Below the pieces are notes generated by a model. It saw nothing but the letters and a program-made list of their open reading frames with translations. It was not told the origin of the DNA and made no database searches. A DNA stretch of 64,000 nt, from positions 36,424,331 through 36,488,330 of the forward strand of contig OY726563.1 of NCBI GenBank assembly GCA_963383645.1, read 5' to 3'. Made by a program: the position numbers and the translations under genes. Source of the DNA: Muscardinus avellanarius. Lineage: Eukaryota; Chordata; Mammalia; Rodentia; Gliridae. Shown one piece after another: positions 32,196-62,735 of this stretch (positions within the stretch are counted from its first letter, which is position 1; the number at the start of each line of letters is the position of its first letter).

Positions 32196-32765
32196 TATTT
32201 TAAATAGGTTCTTTACATCCATTTCCCTGCAAATGACATGATTTTGTTCATCTTTATGGCTGAGTAAAATTTCATTGTATATATATTCCATAGTTTAGTA
32301 ATCCATTCATATATTGATGGACATCTTTGCTGGTTTTATAGTTTGGCAATGGTAAATTGCGTAGCAATGAACATAGATACAAAGAAAATTATGCTAAGTG
32401 AGATTAGTCAGTCACAAAAACTAAAAAATTGGATGTTCTCCCTAATATACAGAAGCTAGAAGAAAAAAAAAGGTCATAGGAGGAACACTAGATGAAAAAT
32501 GAGAAACCATAGATGAGCAATTAAGGAGAACTAACTGAGGGGGATGGAAGAGGGGAAGAGGGAAATTCCCTAATGTGCATAATGTACATTCACAAACATA
32601 TCAAACTCAATTACTAAACCAAACATGAAAATGAGGGATAAGGATGGAATGGGGTGGGAACCGGGGAAAGGCTAAATGAGTGATGTGTGCATGTATGCCT
32701 CTACCATCTTGTACTCCATTAAGATGTGTGACTACAATGCACCAATTAAAAATAAGATGTCTTGT
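32196..32765 (+). mobile_element. Twin-primed (5'-inverted) LINE-1 3' end
   Basis: 32196-32370 is antisense ORF2 C-terminal region ('CTTTATGGCTGAGTAAAATT', 'AGTTTGGCAATGG'). From ~32375 the same L1 continues in sense ('ATTATGCTAAGTGAGATTAG') through the 3'-UTR to GCACCAATTAAAA. The two parts are adjacent segments of one L1, the signature of twin priming. Confidence 0.88.
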
Positions 32766-34928: not shown

Positions 34929-35041
34929 GTATGAAGCCATTTACCTTGATAGGTTGTCACACAAAATTTTTTAAATGAATTACACTGTGTTATACCTCCC
35001 CAGTAATCATGATGTTGAGAATTACTAAATCCTTTTTCAAT

Positions 35042-35465
35042 ATATTTTTAATTTTTTTATTGGTGCATTTTATTCATACATCATAATGGGATAAAAAAAA
35101 AACTTGTGTAGACATACATGCACACATACCCCAGTTAGCCCCTACCCAATACCCACCCCATTCCATCCCCATCCCTCCTTCCCATGCTTGGCTTAGTGGT
35201 TGACATCGATATGGTTATTAGAGCACAGCATGTGCTTTAGAAAGTTTCCTTCTTCCTCCTCCCATCCCCTCAGTTAGGTTGCCTTATTTGTTCCTCTATA
35301 GGACCTCCTTTTTCATCTAGAGTTCCTCCTATGACCCATTTCTTCTTAGCTTTCACATATTGGGAAAATATCCAATTTCTTAATTTTGTAACTGACTAAC
35401 TTCACTTAGTATAATGTCCTCCAGTTCCATCCATTTCCCTAAAATTGTGGGGTTTTTTCAATATT
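35042..35465 (-). mobile_element. LINE-1 3' end
   Basis: Antisense. 'TTTATTGGTGCATTTTATTC', 'GCTTGGCTTAGTGGTTGAC' and 'CTCCAGTTCCATCCATTTCC' cover the tail, 3'-UTR and last part of ORF2. Same young lineage as 61568-61895. Confidence 0.88.
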
Positions 35466-39699: not shown

Positions 39700-40592
39700 A
39701 AATTCAAATGGCCAATACATGCATGAAAAATGCTCGACATCATTAGCAATCAAAGAGATGAAAATCAAAACTACCCTGAGATTTCACCTAACACCAACTA
39801 GAATGGCAATCATTCAAAACACAAACAATAACAAATGCTGGTGAGGACGTGGAGAAGTGGGAACTCTAATACATTGTTGGTGAGACTGGAAATTAGCACA
39901 ACCACTTTCGAAAACAGTATGGAGGATCCTTAGAAGAATGGGAATGAACTTACCATATGATCCAGCAATACCACTTCTGGGTATCTACCCAAAAGAATGT
40001 AAACCAAACTATCAAACTAATGCATGCATATCTATGTTCATAGCTGTATAATTCACAATTGCCAAATTATGAAATCAGCCAAGAAGTCCATCAACAGATG
40101 AATGGATTACAAAACTATGGAATATGTACACAATGGAATTCTACTCAGGCATTAAGAAAAGCACAATTACATCATTTAGAGGGAAATGGATGGAACTAGA
40201 GAACATTATGCTAAGTGAGATTAGTAAGTCATAAAAAATAAGATATCAGATTCTCTCCCTAATAATATGCAGTATCTAGGAAGAAAATGGGTCATAAGAG
40301 GAATTCTATATGAAGAAGGAGATACTACTGATGAGCAATAAAGTGACCTCAGGGGATGGGAGGGGGCAAAAGGAAAATTCTCTAATGCACATGATGTACA
40401 TCAATGTCAAACACTAAGCCAAACATGAGAAGGAGGTATGGGGAGGAAATGGGGTGGGAATTGGATAAGGGCTAATTGGATGATGTGTGCATGTATGCCT
40501 CTACCATCTTGTACCCCATTAAGATGTATGACTTCAATGCACCAATAAAATTTTCTTAAACTTTTTAAAAATTAAAAAATAAGCATAAAAAA
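39700..40592 (+). mobile_element. LINE-1 3' end (ORF2 C-terminus and 3'-UTR)
   Basis: 'GCTCGACATCATTAGCAATC', 'GGTGAGGACGTGGAGAAGTG', 'CCAGCAATACCACTTCTGGG', 'CACAATGGAATTCTACTCAG' and the 3'-UTR through 'GCACCAATAAAATTTTC'. 5'-truncated in ORF2, with the frame interrupted. Same lineage as 46744-47630 and 32375-32765. Confidence 0.92.
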
Positions 40593-46743: not shown

Positions 46744-47630
46744 AAAAAATGCTCAACATCATTAGCAATCAGAGAGATGCAAATTAAAACTGCCCTGAGA
46801 TTTCACTATCTCCAACTAGAATGAGAATTATTAAAAACACAGACAACAAATGCTGGTGAGGATGTGGAGAAGTGGGAACTCTAATACATTGTTGGTGGGA
46901 TTGAAAATTAGTGCTACCACTTTGGAAAACATTTTGGAGGATCCTCAGAAGAATGGGGACAAATCTACCATATGATGCAGCAATACCACTTCTGGGTATC
47001 TACCCAAAAGAATGGAAACCAAACTGCCAAACTAATACATGCACATCTATACTCATAGCTACATAATTCACAGTTACCAAACTTTGGAACTAGTCAAGAT
47101 GTCTATCAACAGATAAGTGGATTATAAAACTATGGAATATGTAAATAATGGAATTTTACTCAGCCATAAAGAAGAACAAAATCATGTCATTTATAGGGAA
47201 GTGGATGGAACTGGAAAACAGTATGCTAAAGGAGATTAGTCACAAAAAGTAAGAAATTGGATGTTCTCCCTAACATGTGGAAGCTAGGGAGAAAAAGGGT
47301 CACAGGAAGAATTCTAGATGAAGAAGGAGAAACTATAAATGAGCCAATAAGACAATCTAAGGGGGATAGGAAGGGTGAATAGGGAAATTCCCTAATGTAC
47401 ATGACATACGTTCACAAACACATCAAAGTCAATCACTACGCCAAATATGAGAAGGAGGAAAGGGGGAAAGAATTGGGAAAGGGCTAAATGACTCATGGAA
47501 GAGAGAAGGAGGGAATGGAGGCGGTAATTGGATAAAGGCTGATTGGGTGATGTGTGTGTATGTCTCTAACTTCTTGTGCTCTATTAATATATGCAACTAC
47601 AATGCACAAATAAAAAAAAATTAAAAAATA
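46744..47630 (+). mobile_element. LINE-1 3' end with a duplicated 3'-UTR block
   Basis: Same span as 39700-40592 ('GCTCAACATCATTAGCAATC' to 'CAATGCACAAATAAAAAAAA'). The purine-rich segment before 'TGATGTGTGTGTATGTC' occurs twice (~47450-47490 and ~47505-47550, each followed by a GGGCTAAATGA/GGCTGATTGGG-like word). Confidence 0.9.
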
Positions 47631-48214
47631 AATGGGAAGAAAGATTTTTTCACGTTTCCATTTTCATATCACTCTCTTGGCTCCACTCCCAAGAATACAA
47701 ATTTTATTTGTAGATTTGAAAACATGTTCTTATGATTAAGAGTGATATTTATCTATGAGAACTCAGAGCAGGGTTAGCCACAGACAATTTGCTAGGAAGG
47801 AAAAGACACTGAGTGGTTGCTAGGTCATCAGATTATCCCACATTATCCTGGAATTCATTTTAAAATAAAATTATTTATATAATGAATTTCTAATTGGTAT
47901 ACTTTTAGATTAAATTTTAAAAGTCCAGAAGCCAACTAAGAGTTCTTCCAAGACATTGTATATGTGTAAACCATCTGCCGTTTTCTCACTTCCATGAACC
48001 TCCTTTTTCCAGGAAGAGAGATTCACTTTTGCTTTATCAGCAGACATACCATATCTCAGGTATTAAGGCCTAACCTCACATGTGCTAACATGGGTTTTTA
48101 TAGAGAATAAAGAATGATCCTGCTTTCACAAAATCTAAAACTTTTCATTTCAATTGAAGAAAAGGAAAATCTGATCCATTGTTAGTTTGAGTAATATTTT
48201 CTTTTGTTTTGCTT
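47631..48214. other. Unrecognised sequence
   Basis: Nothing supported. Confidence 0.4.
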
Positions 48215-55485: not shown

Positions 55486-57139
55486 AAATAAGAAAGCAAC
55501 AAATAGCAGATAGCAAATATAAATGTCACGTGTTGTGGTATATTTCATCATGTGAAATGGGTAGAATGTTACTTTTGGGATGCTATTTTGCCTATCACCA
55601 CCAGAATAGGAGAGTCTAGAAAGCAGTTTCCCAGAAATGAAGTAAAATGTTTTAGATAGGAGGGAGGGTCAGCTATCTTGTATACAGATAGAAGATACAA
55701 TAATATAAAACCTGTGAAATGGTCATTCGATTTTCCACAGGATGATCACTTGTGAAATTTATAAGCTTTGGAGATTGATAGAAATGGAAACTTGATTAGA
55801 GTGGGCTCAAAATAAAATAAATGAAGATAATAAATAAGAAAAAGCTATAGAGTTTTATTATAAATGACAACAGAAAAGTGGTAGAATACTCAGAGGAAAA
55901 TGAGCAATGAAGGGCAAGAACTGTGCTATATGTGCATGCTGAGAGGACTGGTCCAGTGGAGAGGGAAAATTTTATGTAAGCAAAAGGAGGATAAGTTCTG
56001 AAGCATTATACTTGAGTATACAGTCAGGAATGAGAATGTACAAGTAAAGGGTTGGACCTTATATAAATATCTCATTTGTATGACACATGGAAAGATGTAA
56101 AATAAAGGTACAGATAAAGAAAAAAAATGAAGACAAATTTAGTTAGAAGATAGAACTGTTGAATTTGAATGCTTCTATTTTCTCCATTCAGTGAGAATTA
56201 GAAAACATAGAAGATACTGGTGTCTTAAAAAATGAGGAAAGTAAAAAAATAATCATTTAAAATAATGGGAGATTTTTGCCAGAAGCTGTAAAGGTTCACT
56301 GGAAATGATTGCACATGTGAATTGTATCTGGTGAGCTAGCTGGTACAGAGCCAGTCTCCAGAATGGCAGGCAGGATGGAGGTCCTAGAATGTTGTACCTC
56401 TGTCTGAGAGCATTTTGTGTTATTTCCAGTTTTATTAACCATATTTATAAATTTCTATGACCTTTTCCATGAAGAAAAGTTGACATCTGATAGCAGTGAT
56501 TGTTTGCATCTTCACATCAATCAGAACACTGTCCATTGTGACAAGCAAGCAAGAAGAAAATAGCATAATTATATTCTTCAGGCACTTTGCCAATACAGTG
56601 AGGCCATAGATACTCTATTCATTTCTCAAGAATGAAACAAAGAGCTCTGCCTACTGGTCATTGGTGTCATTCATCTACAGTGTCTAAGTCAATGTGTCTA
56701 AAGCCACATTTGTTTTTCCCTTCTTCAAACAGATTTTCTTAGCCTTACTGTCCACTTACTTAATTTCACAAATATCATTATAATCCTATCCTTTCATAAA
56801 ATGATACTTTCCTTCTAAACCTTGGCTCCACATTTCCTAAATAACTTATATACTCAGGAATCTGACATAAAGAACTCTTCTAGTTTCCTCCTGACTCATC
56901 TCCCACCATCATCTTCCCACCTATCTTATATTATTGTTTTAAACAAGCATATCATGAGATATTTTAGGTTCCAGGCAGCAGGAATGTAACTCAGAATGCT
57001 CTTAGTAAGGAAAAGTTACTTCCATCAAGATACCTGCCCTGAATTAATTAAGGGAAGAATTTCCCTCCACACATTTTAGTGAATTCTATCAAACCCACTG
57101 CTTAACTTACATAGTTAAATGGTTCTCAATTACTATTTT
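55486..57139. other. Unrecognised region 5' of the composite element
   Basis: About 1.65 kb without supported genes. The first few hundred bases may continue the old L2-associated sequence. It provides the TTTT/AAAA target into which the composite element inserted. Confidence 0.42.
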
Positions 57140-57154
57140 AAAATATAGACTCAG
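57140..57154. repeat. Left target-site duplication of composite element
   Basis: AAAATATAGACTCAG, identical to the right copy at 59747. Its last three bases overlap the CAG that begins each 5' monomer (microhomology). Confidence 0.95.
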
Positions 57155-57535
57155 ACCCCTGGAGAAACCAGGGCCCGGACGTAAGACCCTGGGTCCCGGA
57201 CAGGGGTCTGGTGGGGCACGTCGGACCCCGGAAGAGCAGGGGCCCGGGTCGCAGGACCCTGGACCCTGGGCCAGACCATGCGGAGCATGCCAGACCCCTG
57301 GAGAAACCAGGGCCCGGTTGTAAAACCCTGGGTCCCAGGCGGGGGTTAGGCGGGGTACGCTGGACCCCGGAAGAGCAGGGGCCCCTGGGCTGGACCGCAT
57401 GGAGCACGCCAGACCCCTGGAGAAACCGGGGCCCGCCGCAAGGCCCTGGGCCCCGGGCAGGGGTCAGGTGGGGCACGCCGGACCCGTGGAAGAGCCAGGG
57501 CCCAGGTCACAGTGCTACTGAGTGCCTGATCCCAC
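57152..57535 (+). repeat. GC-rich 5' tandem monomers of the composite element
   Basis: Units start CAGACCCCTGGAGAAACC at 57152, 57291 and 57410 (spacing 139 and 119). The second unit lacks ~20 bp around GTCGCAGGACCCTGG, and the third trails off into unique sequence. CpG-containing and strongly GC-rich against an AT-rich background. By analogy with L1 5'-UTR monomers it may carry the promoter, but I see no TATA box or identified factor site. Overlapping frames of 97-169 aa on both strands here are artefacts of GC-rich repeats. Confidence 0.85.
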
Positions 57536-57616
57536 AACCTCCTCAAACCACACATACTGTCTTCTCTTATTTAAAAAAAAAAAGAAAGAAAAAGAAAAAA
57601 GAAAAATATTGGAGAG

Positions 57617-57672
57617 GGGTCAAGAAGGCCATGGCAGATGCCAGGGTCAAGAAGGCCATGGCAGATGCCAGG
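57617..57672 (+). repeat. 27-bp tandem duplication
   Basis: GTCAAGAAGGCCATGGCAGA begins at 57619 and again at 57646, period 27 (nine codons; encodes KKAMADARV twice in one frame). Confidence 0.93.
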
Positions 57673-57679
57673 ATATTGG

Positions 57680-58140
57680 AGATGCAGGCAAAACTTATCC
57701 AAATGAACTGGAACTTTTAGAAAAATTCCCCGAGAAGGAGGACTGCTTCTTCTCTACATTCTTAAGAATCTTGGACATCACCTGTAAGGAGAGTTTAGCG
57801 GAGACCTAGGAGAAAGGCAGTGTTGAAAGCAGTCTCCGCGATGGCAGCGGAGACTTGTATTCAGGAGAAGCAGAAATCGGATCCTACCAACATTATTTTT
57901 TGGAAAAATTACACCAAATATTGAATGCTACCGGCGTGCATGCTTAGGAACACTGGACAACATTCAGAGTGGAAAAAAAGCTTAGGAAAGATTTGAAATG
58001 ATGGAGGCAGTGGCAATGGCAGTGGCCAATACTCAGGGGAGGCAGAGATCTGATGCATTACACCTGGAGCCTTTGAAGTAATTACCACAGAGGCAGAATG
58101 CTGCCACCACGCACCCTGGAGAATGTGGGACAAATGGCTG
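57680..58140 (+). repeat. Three diverged ~180-bp tandem units
   Basis: Corresponding landmarks recur at ~57720, ~57901 and ~58076: GAAAAATTCC/GAAAAATTAC/AAGTAATTAC, then TTCTTAAGAATCTTGGACA / GCTTAGGAACACTGGACAA / CTGGAGAATGTGGGACAA. Units two and three also share GATGGCAGCGGAG / AATGGCAGTGGCC and AGGAGAAGCAGAAATC / AGGGGAGGCAGAGATC. Old internal duplication that precedes the VNTR. Confidence 0.7.
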
Positions 58141-58169
58141 GGCGAAGAGGATGCTCGGATTGGAACCTG

Positions 58170-59320
58170 CCGAGGGGTGAGGCCGGTGATGGACATAGCA
58201 AAGCTGGAATTGGAGCCTATCGTGAGGCAAGGCTGGTGCTGGAGCCTCCAAGGCTGGGATCAGAGCCCATTGAGGGGTTAGGCCAGTGTTGGGGCCAGTG
58301 AGGCCAGGATCGGAGCCTGCCCTGAGGCAAGGCCGGTGCTGGGGGTTCCGAGGCCAGGATCGGAGTCTGCCAAGGGGTTAGGCAGGTGCCAGGACCAACG
58401 GCTGGCATCGGAGCCTGCCATGAGGCAAGGCCGGTTCTGAGGCCCCCAAGGCCAGTATCAGAGCCTGCCGAGGGGTTAGGCAGATGCCGGGGCCAGTGGC
58501 CGGCATTGGAGCCTGCCGTGAGGCAAGTCTGCTACTGGGGCCTCAGAGGCCGGGATCGGAGCTTGCAGAGGGGTTAGGCCGTTGCCGGGGCCAGCGGCCG
58601 GCATTGGAGCCTTCCATGAGGCAAGGCCACTACTGAGGCCTCCGAGAGCAAGATCGGAGCCTGCCGAGGCATTAGGACAATGCCGGTGCCAGTGGCAAGC
58701 ATCGGAGCCTGCCGTGAGGCAAGGCAGGTGCTGGGGCCTCCGAGGCCACGATTGGAGCCTGCCAAGGGGTTAGGCCAGTGCCGGGGCCAGTGAGGCTGGG
58801 ATTGGAGCATGCCGTGAGGCAAGGCCGGTGCTGGGGCCTCTGAGGCTGAGATCGGAGCCTGCTAAGGGATCAGGCAGGTGACAGGGCCAATGGCCAGCAT
58901 CGGAGCCTGCCGTGAGGCAAGGCTGCTACTGGGGCCTCCGAGGCTGGGATCGGAGCCTCCCAAGGGGTTAGGCCAGTGCCAGGGCCAGCGAGGCCAGCAT
59001 CGGAGCCTGCAGTGATGCAAGGCCAGAGCTGGGGCCTCCAAGGTCGTGATAGGAGCCTGCTGAGGGGTTAAGCCTGTTCCAGTGCCAGCGGCCGACATTG
59101 GAGCCTGCGGTGAGGCAAGGCCACTACTGAGGCCTCCAAGGCCAGGATCGCAGCCTGCCTGGAGGCTAGGCTGGTGCTGGGGCCACCGAGGCTGGGATCG
59201 GAGCCAGCCGAGGGGTTAGGCTGGTGTCAGGGGCCAGTGAGACCAGAATTGGGGCCTCCCATGAGGCAAGGCTGCTGCTTAAGCCAGCGAGGTCTGGATC
59301 AGTCCACTGAGTAGCCAGGC
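58170..59320 (+). repeat. 98-bp-period GC-rich VNTR (49-bp half-units)
   Basis: GAGGCAAGG (or one-base variants) recurs at 58224, 58324, 58422, 58520, 58618, 58716, 58816, 58914, 59014, 59112 and, after an extra half-unit, 59263: spacings of 98 or 100, the last 151. Each period has two related halves, both ending ATCGGAGCCTGCC: one starting GGCAAGGCC, the other GGGTTAGGCC. So this is a dimeric higher-order array of a ~49-bp ancestor. Units differ by several substitutions each. The period is not a multiple of three, so the many 63-95-aa frames are shadows. Confidence 0.92.
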
Positions 59321-59383
59321 CACTACTGGGGCCATCACGAGTGGGATCGGTACTTGCAACATGACATGCACAGAAAAATATCA

Positions 59384-59746
59384 CAGAAAATAAAAACCAG
59401 ATGCTTTCCCTACTCAGCAATAACTAGGAGGAAAGGGGCAACAGGAAGAGGTCGAGCTATAGAAAGGGCCCTATAGTGAAGCAATTAATGTGACCAATCA
59501 GAGGGTATGGAATAGGGGAGGATGGAGCATCTTTAAAATGCAAGAGGTATATAAACAAATGTATCAAAGTTAATCACCAAATAAGTGTGGGATCGAGGGA
59601 GGGGGAGGGAATGGGATGGGGAGTAGATGAGGGCTAATTGGATGATGTGTGCTTGTATATCCTCTCAAGTCTTGTATTCCAATGTGATATATGATTACAA
59701 TGTACCAATAAAAATAAATTTAAAAAATAATAAAATAAAATAAAAT
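59384..59746 (+). mobile_element. LINE-1 3' end forming the 3' module of the composite
   Basis: 'CAGATGCTTTCCCTACTCAG', 'GTATCAAAGTTAATCACCAA', 'GGGCTAATTGGATGATGTG' and 'ATGTACCAATAAAAATAAAT' align along their length with the last ~390 bp of the L1 at 32375-32765. The tail ends in (TAAAA)n. This module gives the L1 machinery its recognition and priming sequence. Confidence 0.9.
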
Positions 59747-59761
59747 AAAATATAGACTCAG
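59747..59761. repeat. Right target-site duplication of composite element
   Basis: AAAATATAGACTCAG, a perfect match to 57140-57154. Confidence 0.95.
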
Positions 59762-61430: not shown

Positions 61431-61567
61431 AATTTCAAAGCAGTCATTTTTATAACAGTTTTCTCCTATTTTCAAGATATTTAATAATTCTGATCTCCCA
61501 CTGCTAGTGAACCTTTCCTTTATTTCTACATTTTTAATTTATTTTTTCCAAGAACTATTTTTAATTG

Positions 61568-61895
61568 GGTAAATATATTTTATTGGTGCATTGTATTTAT
61601 ACATCATAATGGGGTAAAAAAAAACTTGTGTAGGCATAAATGTACACATCACCTAGCCAGTCCCCACCCAGTCCCCACCTCCCTCCCTCCCCAACCTTCC
61701 TTCCCATGCTTGGCTTAATGGTTGACTTCGATATGAATTAGTACATCATGTGCTTTAAAGCATTTCCCTCTCCCCACCTCCCATCCCCACAGTTAGGTTG
61801 TCTTATTTGCTCCTCTATAGGATCTCTTTTTTCACCTGGAGTTCCTCCTATGACCCCATTCACCCAAGCTTTCACATATTAGGGAAAGCATTTGA
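61568..61895 (-). mobile_element. LINE-1 3' end
   Basis: Antisense young tail: 'TTTTATTGGTGCATTGTATT', 'GCTTGGCTTAATGGTTGAC', 'GGAGTTCCTCCTATGACCCC'. Parallel to 35042-35465. Confidence 0.9.
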
Positions 61896-62735
61896 TTCCT
61901 TATTTTTTAGAGATGCTCTAGGAGACTTAATTTTGTCCAGTCAAATAACTTCTTCAGACTTAGGTTGAATGTGTTACAATTTATGGCAGTAATGAAACTA
62001 ATCTACCTAGGTTTGCACAGGTTGGACAATTGACAGTATTTTCCACTTTCCTCCCATTCTTAATTTAAGTGGGGGTCCTAGTTGATACATGTACAGTGGA
62101 GGCTATAGGGATACGTGCACATTAGAAGTTTAGTAAAGCAGGAGATAGGGGCAAATGTTTTCTATTCCCCAGTTAGTAGTGATGGAAATACCAGGAAAAA
62201 AAAGAGTCATGCTGACAAATTACTCAGGTAACCACACCAAAATTACCAGAGGTCTTTTTAAATAAAATCTGTGACTTAATTCCACATTTTAAAACTTAAA
62301 TCTTATGGAATCTGCCCTCCAAGTAAGTCGCATACTCCCTAAAGTCAAACTAGTACAAATTCAATGTATTAATATAAAAATTCAGATTGAGTTATTCAAT
62401 TATAATCTATAATCAATTAAGATAAAACTGTGGGCTATAAGTTTTCATTGTTCTGAAAGATGAGAGATCTGGTATGTAGGATTCTGATGTTCACTCTGAG
62501 TTTAACCTTGAGCAAGTCACTTAATGAGTCTGAGTTTGTGAATCCATTTGAGCCCAGTGGATCTCTCTTATTTTACAAAATGAAGTTCTATGATTGTATT
62601 CTGTGGTGCACAGTAACAAAATAATTTTAAAGGTCATTAGTGGACCTTTACAAACAGGGTAAAGTGCTATAGATGCTGTATATTAAAAAAGGATAAATAT
62701 AAAACCCTAAAAATATAGAAGAAAACATTTTTATT
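61896..62735. other. Unrecognised sequence
   Basis: Nothing supported. Confidence 0.4.

Follow-up and report, generated by a model that had tools for sequence, protein, structure and literature searches.

The 64-kb stretch of hazel dormouse DNA analysed here (the window) contains, at 57140-59761, a sequence in which several kinds of tandem repeat are joined to the 3' end of an L1 retrotransposon. The locus raises the question of whether this is a retrotransposon of its own kind, an L1 that has lost its coding body, a copied host transcript, or a set of separate insertions that came to lie next to each other. Direct reading, TRF and a repeat finder showed that the sequence is a single insertion carrying five modules in order (Table 1). 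The preliminary description of the locus had reported a perfect 15-bp target-site duplication at a TTTT/AAAA site, GC-rich 5' monomers, an A-rich linker, diverged tandem units and an A-rich tail, and all of these were found again. Its attribution of the DNA to a squirrel-type genome was mistaken, since the host is Muscardinus avellanarius, a member of the Gliridae.

Table 1 Features of the composite insertion in the window.
Feature	Position	Strand	Evidence
5' target-site duplication copy, AAAATATAGACTCAG	57140..57154	.	identical to 59747-59761, 15/15
5' module: ~2.5 GC-rich monomers, unit ~138 bp, GC 0.72	57155..57505	+	TRF, repeat finder
Linker: ~60 bp of unique sequence (GTGCTACTGAGTGCCTGATCCC...), then A-rich run	57506..57615	+	22-mer genome matches
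Middle module: three tandem units of ~165 bp, diverged long ago	57616..58150	+	alignments versus shuffles; 24-mer matches
VNTR: GC 0.65, 50-bp base unit, 98- and 198-bp higher orders	58151..59343	+	
3' module: L1 ORF2 end (~60-80 bp) and L1 3'UTR, AATAAA signals	59344..59720	+	aligned to older L1 3' ends
A-rich tail, (TAAAA)n-like	59721..59746	+	direct reading, TRF
3' target-site duplication copy	59747..59761	.	match to 57140-57154

The duplication extends to 16 bp if the T at 57139/59746 is counted, and the insertion site of the window copy reads ...CTATTTT/AAAATATAG. The diverged units of the middle module are real: unit 1 aligned to unit 2 with a score of 80 (mean 19 and maximum 32 in 300 shuffles), and unit 0 aligned to the other two with scores of 50 and 51 (shuffle maxima 31). 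Kinship of the middle units or the 5' monomers with the VNTR was rejected, the scores lying within the shuffle range. The middle module of the window copy starts with a 27-bp tandem duplication (57617-57670), which is nearly private to this copy, because 26 of the 28 copies with the module start in view match only from position 28-38 on; the middle module of L006 matches from position 1 too. The VNTR had been described as a 98-bp repeat; the array is present, and its base unit is 50 bp rather than 98 bp. TRF scores periods of 198 and 98 above 50 in the window copy, and the period peaks of other copies are at 50, 98, 100, 198 or 200. The VNTR length ranges from 275 to 2552 bp and its GC content from 0.61 to 0.68 in 21 copies. 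Alignments of the 3' module to the 3' ends of older L1 copies lie within 40150-40590, 32450-32755, 47250-47631, 35035-35420 and 61556-61990, and it is the one at 40150-40590 that reaches 59344, approximately the start of the L1-derived stretch. The L1 origin previously assigned to about 360 bp of 3' end was therefore correct, with the addition that the stretch also holds the last part of ORF2.

The element contains no open reading frame for a reverse transcriptase or endonuclease, the longest stop-to-stop frame overlapping it being 192 amino acids, compared with 1279 amino acids for L1 ORF2 in this genome. Five frames of the middle-module consensus gave no Pfam match above the cut-off; two weak matches reached 12.8 and 13.6 bits against cut-offs of 25 and 27. 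One of two middle-module pieces compared with PDB sequences had no match, and the other had a weak one (E 0.78). These Pfam and PDB comparisons led to the rejection of a protein origin of the middle module. No Rfam family matched in the 64-kb window.

Copies of the element were sought in the whole genome (2,497,143,478 bases in 104 contigs), where scoring of the best 40 of 16144 candidates yielded 74 matches. The copy set comprised 47 loci (L001-L045, L049 and L050) drawn from the matches or requested by position, many of them overlapping, which resolved into 40 distinct copies; a rule excluded linker matches standing alone and short partial matches to the 3' module, and L051-L056 stand outside the count. 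All five modules were present in order in 17 of the 40, with the qualification that the parsing joins modules in one order only, so that reversals would appear as split copies. Monomers were present in 27 of the 40 copies and continued into the middle module in 26 of these, and the VNTR followed the middle module in all 31 copies that have one. The exception among the monomer-bearing copies is L031, which consists of monomers and linker that continue into LTR-like sequence, with no middle module. Two copies (L022 and L029) had no matched 3' module although the fetched stretch extends past the VNTR match, and the remaining incomplete copies are 5'-truncated or cut at the edge of the fetched stretch. 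L045 represents two copies arranged head to tail, which, like L031, were split by the parsing. Nine of the ten loci obtained from a search with the 3' module have a VNTR upstream, and at the tenth (L015) the 3' module stands alone and is flanked by a duplication of its own. One of the 40 copies, C2:131418301, is a partial 3' match and may be an old L1.

Exact k-mer matches give the abundance of the family genome-wide. A linker 22-mer occurred 1200 times, a middle-module 24-mer 2119 times and a 3'-module 24-mer 7560 times, the last not necessarily always within a composite; the reversed control of each had 0 matches. These k-mers were intact in 16 of 27, 20 of 27 and 20 of 26 fetched copies, respectively, which corresponds to roughly 2,000 copies for the linker, 2,900 for the middle module and 9,800 for the 3' module. 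The fetched copies are mostly the best matches to the window copy, which biases the intact fractions as well as the divergence values given below, and the true copy numbers may therefore be higher. The climb of the counts from 5' to 3' matches the gradient that 5' truncation during reverse transcription yields.

The modules are linked well beyond the fetched copies. In the first 26.48 Mb of contig C1, 17 of 26 middle-module matches had a same-strand 3'-module match 1.2-2.7 kb downstream, and there were 0 pairs in the wrong order, with a chance expectation of 0.0076 for each order. Within the first 126.7 Mb there were 69 linker matches, of which 33 had an exact middle-module match downstream and none in the wrong order; the distance was 462-537 bp in 32 of the 33 linked pairs and 767 bp in one. 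The intact fraction in the fetched copies would predict about 51 links rather than 33. Four of the 36 unlinked linkers were fetched, and all four carry a middle module that is 87-91% identical to that of the window; three continue into the VNTR, and the fourth (L054) is interrupted by other sequence. An older, more diverged subfamily therefore explains at least these unlinked linkers, and a different partner for linkers without a middle-module match was rejected for the four of 36 that were fetched.

The ends of the copies carry the marks of L1-type insertion. After the exclusion of duplicates, stretches cut by the locus end and short partial matches, 23 copies had both ends in view, and 18 of them have their own duplication scoring at least 10 with at most one mismatch; the five without are L003, L004, L010, L039 and the second L045 copy. 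In a control of 306 mismatched pairs made from the ends of the 18 copies, the 95th percentile of the score was 8.75, the 99th was 12 and the worst pair reached 29, and the copies' own duplications reach the 99th percentile in only 9 of the 18. Of the 18 sites, 14 have a T at -1 relative to the cut, 14 at -2 and 12 at -3; the A at positions +1 to +4 follows in part from the placement of the cut. TT/AAAA is the pattern of the L1 endonuclease (PMC13174262; also textbook knowledge). Copies L010, L011, L013, L015 and L017 are 5'-truncated. The element inserts as one unit at sites of the L1-endonuclease type, and the A-rich tail, the copies' own duplications and the frequent 5' truncation complete the features that mark a non-autonomous retrotransposon mobilised by L1. 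These insertion signatures point to a dependence of the family on L1.

The 5' starts of 23 copies fall into clusters according to monomer phase (p 0.063 with one centre assumed, 0.007 with two and 0.001 with three). Of these 23, 16 were obtained with the monomer query, and in 10 the start was taken from the edge of the monomer match instead of that of a duplication; L003, L039, L045 and L050 were left out. Outside CpG sites, the 26 3' modules compared differ from the majority sequence by a median of 2.7%; for the 27 middle modules the median is 3.4%, with a range of 1.1 to 19.9%. The family is abundant and was active fairly recently. Four copies (L003, L005, L006 and L008) have the same bases at five diagnostic sites of the middle module and at two of the 3' module, on either side of the VNTR; the sites were picked from the same alignments in which the linkage was scored. 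L040 carries the 3' pair but lacks the middle set, and in one copy at L034 a single base of the pair is present. The linkage of diagnostic bases across the VNTR indicates that the modules were mostly inherited as one unit.

The genome also contains a young L1, represented by two copies, each with both frames open, that share 99.6% identity across 6.76 kb; more than 100 ORF1 domains among the best 150 of 38950 candidates had the same score, 104.3 bits. The best named rodent relatives of the L1 ORF1 are from Sciurus vulgaris (51% identity) and Marmota (46%), and a metagenome protein is 68% identical. The 5' end of the young L1 was located by comparing the two copies, including 1.9 kb of upstream DNA. 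Its 5'UTR spans 2.1 kb before ORF1, has a GC content of 47% and contains no internal repeats. The 3'UTR of the young L1 differs from the 3' module of the element, from which it follows that the 3' end of the composite was taken from another, older L1 lineage.

The presence of an L1 3' end that includes the end of ORF2 is an argument for regarding the element as an internally deleted L1, in which a monomeric 5'UTR was joined to the 3' end by deletion or splicing of the ORF1-ORF2 region. Monomer-type 5'UTRs occur in mouse L1, which also speaks for such an origin. The preliminary description had proposed a comparison with full-length L1 5'UTRs to test the deletion, and the young full-length L1, whose 5'UTR was read in whole, has no match to the body of the element. 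The young L1 (L046) did not match 57140-59761 at E 1e-5, none of the 138-bp monomers occur in its complete 2.1-kb 5'UTR, and this 5'UTR had in common with the other modules only words of up to 24 bp at E 1. A relative of the young L1 that is about 94% identical to it (L048) also had no module match at E 1e-5 in the part in view, which ends short of its 5' end. A query combining the L1 ORF2 end with the 3' module matched the 3' module alone in all of the best 40 of 7001 candidates, and no close donor L1 with the 3'UTR of the element was among these 40. The continuation of 26 of the 27 monomer-bearing copies into the middle module is likewise at odds with a deleted L1. We consider this origin highly improbable. 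A rare or old L1 with such monomers may exist; the 5'UTR compared represents one young L1 lineage.

Another explanation is that a host transcript, a lncRNA or a repeat-rich gene, was retrocopied many times from one locus, and it draws on the observation that no protein or known element was detected in the middle module. The linked subfamily variants and the graded divergence fit successive sources, although a single evolving source gene would produce subfamilies too, and the monomers, which may carry the promoter, were copied along with the rest. Repeated retrocopying of a host transcript is very unlikely. The idea that separate insertions and local tandem repeats accumulated here by chance has nothing in its favour beyond the composite look of the locus. 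It is refuted by the module order common to many places and by the copies' own duplications, and we regard its probability as negligible. The preliminary description had expected that a genuine family would show many copies with the same order and individual duplications, which agrees with the 17 complete, dispersed copies among the 40 and the duplications of 18 among 23. The element very probably belongs to a family of non-autonomous VNTR-composite retrotransposons in the hazel dormouse that was assembled independently and is analogous to SVA and LAVA of hominoids. The earlier suggestion of an SVA-like, independently evolved analogue is supported by the many copies of the same order and by the absence of a match between the body of the element and the young L1.

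Based on the modules and the insertion signatures, a mechanism of mobilisation can be proposed. Transcription by Pol II would start within the GC-rich 5' monomers, which are the likely promoter. The RNA would be polyadenylated at its L1-derived end, which is predicted to supply the AATAAA-type signals and the A tail, and target-primed reverse transcription by L1 ORF2p, acting in trans, would copy it. The L1 lineage that donated the 3' module is older than the present young L1, and the young L1, with both frames open, would be a suitable driver. In a broader scheme, VNTR composites might be a convergent class that arises wherever a mammalian L1 is active, with the dormouse family as a first case outside hominoids and, as in SVA, LAVA, PVA and FVA, a 5' monomer module that may be exchanged between 3' partners. 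Such an exchange may be seen at L031, where monomers and linker run into an LTR-like 3' end that recalls the SINE-R of SVA. We put this scheme forward tentatively and consider it somewhat less likely to be right than wrong.

The VNTR composites SVA, LAVA, PVA and FVA are termed specific to hominoid primates (PMC7353768, PMC4432496), and ideas on why such elements have a VNTR and a GC-rich 5' repeat have therefore been drawn so far from a single origin. A rodent family that arose separately allows these ideas to be tested by comparison. A further consequence is that thousands of GC-rich, CpG-bearing insertions sit in the dormouse genome. No dormouse or squirrel VNTR composite was named among the listed matches from the open literature, which comprised titles and the beginnings of abstracts, with subscription papers and preprints outside their scope. 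A paper on chimeric L1 insertions does not mention squirrel, Sciur- or marmot in its main text (PMC13174262), and the ground squirrel is counted among mammals with quiescent LINEs or SINEs (PMC5857283). The novelty of the family is judged from the literature, and an automatic Dfam model of it may exist.

HAL1 and other non-autonomous L1 derivatives have an L1 3' end and are presumed to depend on L1. The dormouse element resembles them in both respects, but it has no frame of ORF1 length and most of its body is non-L1. With the monomeric L1 of the mouse type, it has in common tandem GC-rich 5' monomers in variable number and starts that possibly lie inside monomers; it differs in having neither ORF1 nor ORF2, and its middle module and VNTR were not found in the L1s compared here. 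The LAVA element of gibbons is likewise a VNTR composite with L1-derived sequence in its 3' part (PMC4432496). However, the 3' part of LAVA consists of AluSz and L1ME fragments together with unique sequence, and at the 5' side LAVA has the CT-repeat/Alu-like region also found in SVA.

A likeness of architecture links the element to SVA. Both are non-coding composites present in thousands of copies, with a 5' tandem repeat, a central GC-rich VNTR of approximately 50-bp units and variable length, a retroelement-derived 3' module, an A tail, and target-site duplications at L1-type sites. A central GC-rich VNTR of 30-50-bp units is a feature of the hominoid composites, and the 50-bp base unit of the dormouse VNTR falls within this range. 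The TRF output for 57155-59746 contains no CT-hexamer array, and the dormouse element begins directly with 138-bp monomers in its place. It also has an added block of three 165-bp units, and its 3' module comes from L1, whereas that of SVA is the SINE-R derived from HERV-K. The dormouse family is not a member of SVA, LAVA, PVA or FVA; it is set apart from them by the hexamer array and the 3' module, and not by alignment to SVA or Alu. The earlier claim that it does not have its sequence in common with SVA is supported by the same two features, namely the lack of a hexamer array and a 3' end derived from L1, rather than by an SVA alignment. The features that recur in both lineages, namely the 5' tandem repeat, the VNTR, the retroelement 3' end and the L1-type insertion, are likely to matter for elements of this type, and those that differ, the CT-hexamer repeat and the SINE-R, are likely to be dispensable.

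The hazel dormouse L1 looks to have been active very recently. Two full-length elements with both reading frames open (L046 and L047) are 99.6% identical across 6.76 kb; L057 and L058 are the genome stretches upstream of them. More than 100 of the 150 ORF1 domains scored had an identical score. The first 519 nucleotides of the window are an L1 3' end with 92% identity to this young L1.

The composite reference copy carries a short tandem duplication, which is absent, as judged from match coordinates, in 26 of the 28 copies that show the start of the middle module. The VNTR of L043 is fused to the interior of the 3' module (position 240), and this junction is an internal deletion; the deleted copy has a target-site duplication. 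The second copy in L045 begins directly behind position 332 of the 3' module of the first, and a target-site duplication was not found for the pair. The linker of L054 contains a long AAG/GAA run, and the middle module of this copy is broken at about position 273 by a sequence labelled by eye as LTR-like.

Variant composite structures in the dormouse assembly (G000)
Feature	Location	Basis
27-bp tandem duplication, start of middle module	window 57617-57670	
Internally deleted composite copy	L043:822-2260	
Two composite copies, head to tail	L045:3-5120	
Monomers and linker joined to LTR-like sequence	L031:890-2600 (also L020, L025; G000:C9:98413389 on)	read by eye

The monomers and linker of L031 are followed directly by a sequence that, by eye, resembles a retroviral 3' end, with a purine-rich tract first and an LTR-like stretch behind it. 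A target-site duplication was sought for this chimera and none was found. The chimera is possibly a second kind of composite, and its LTR-like 3' part calls to mind the HERV-K-derived SINE-R of the hominoid SVA.
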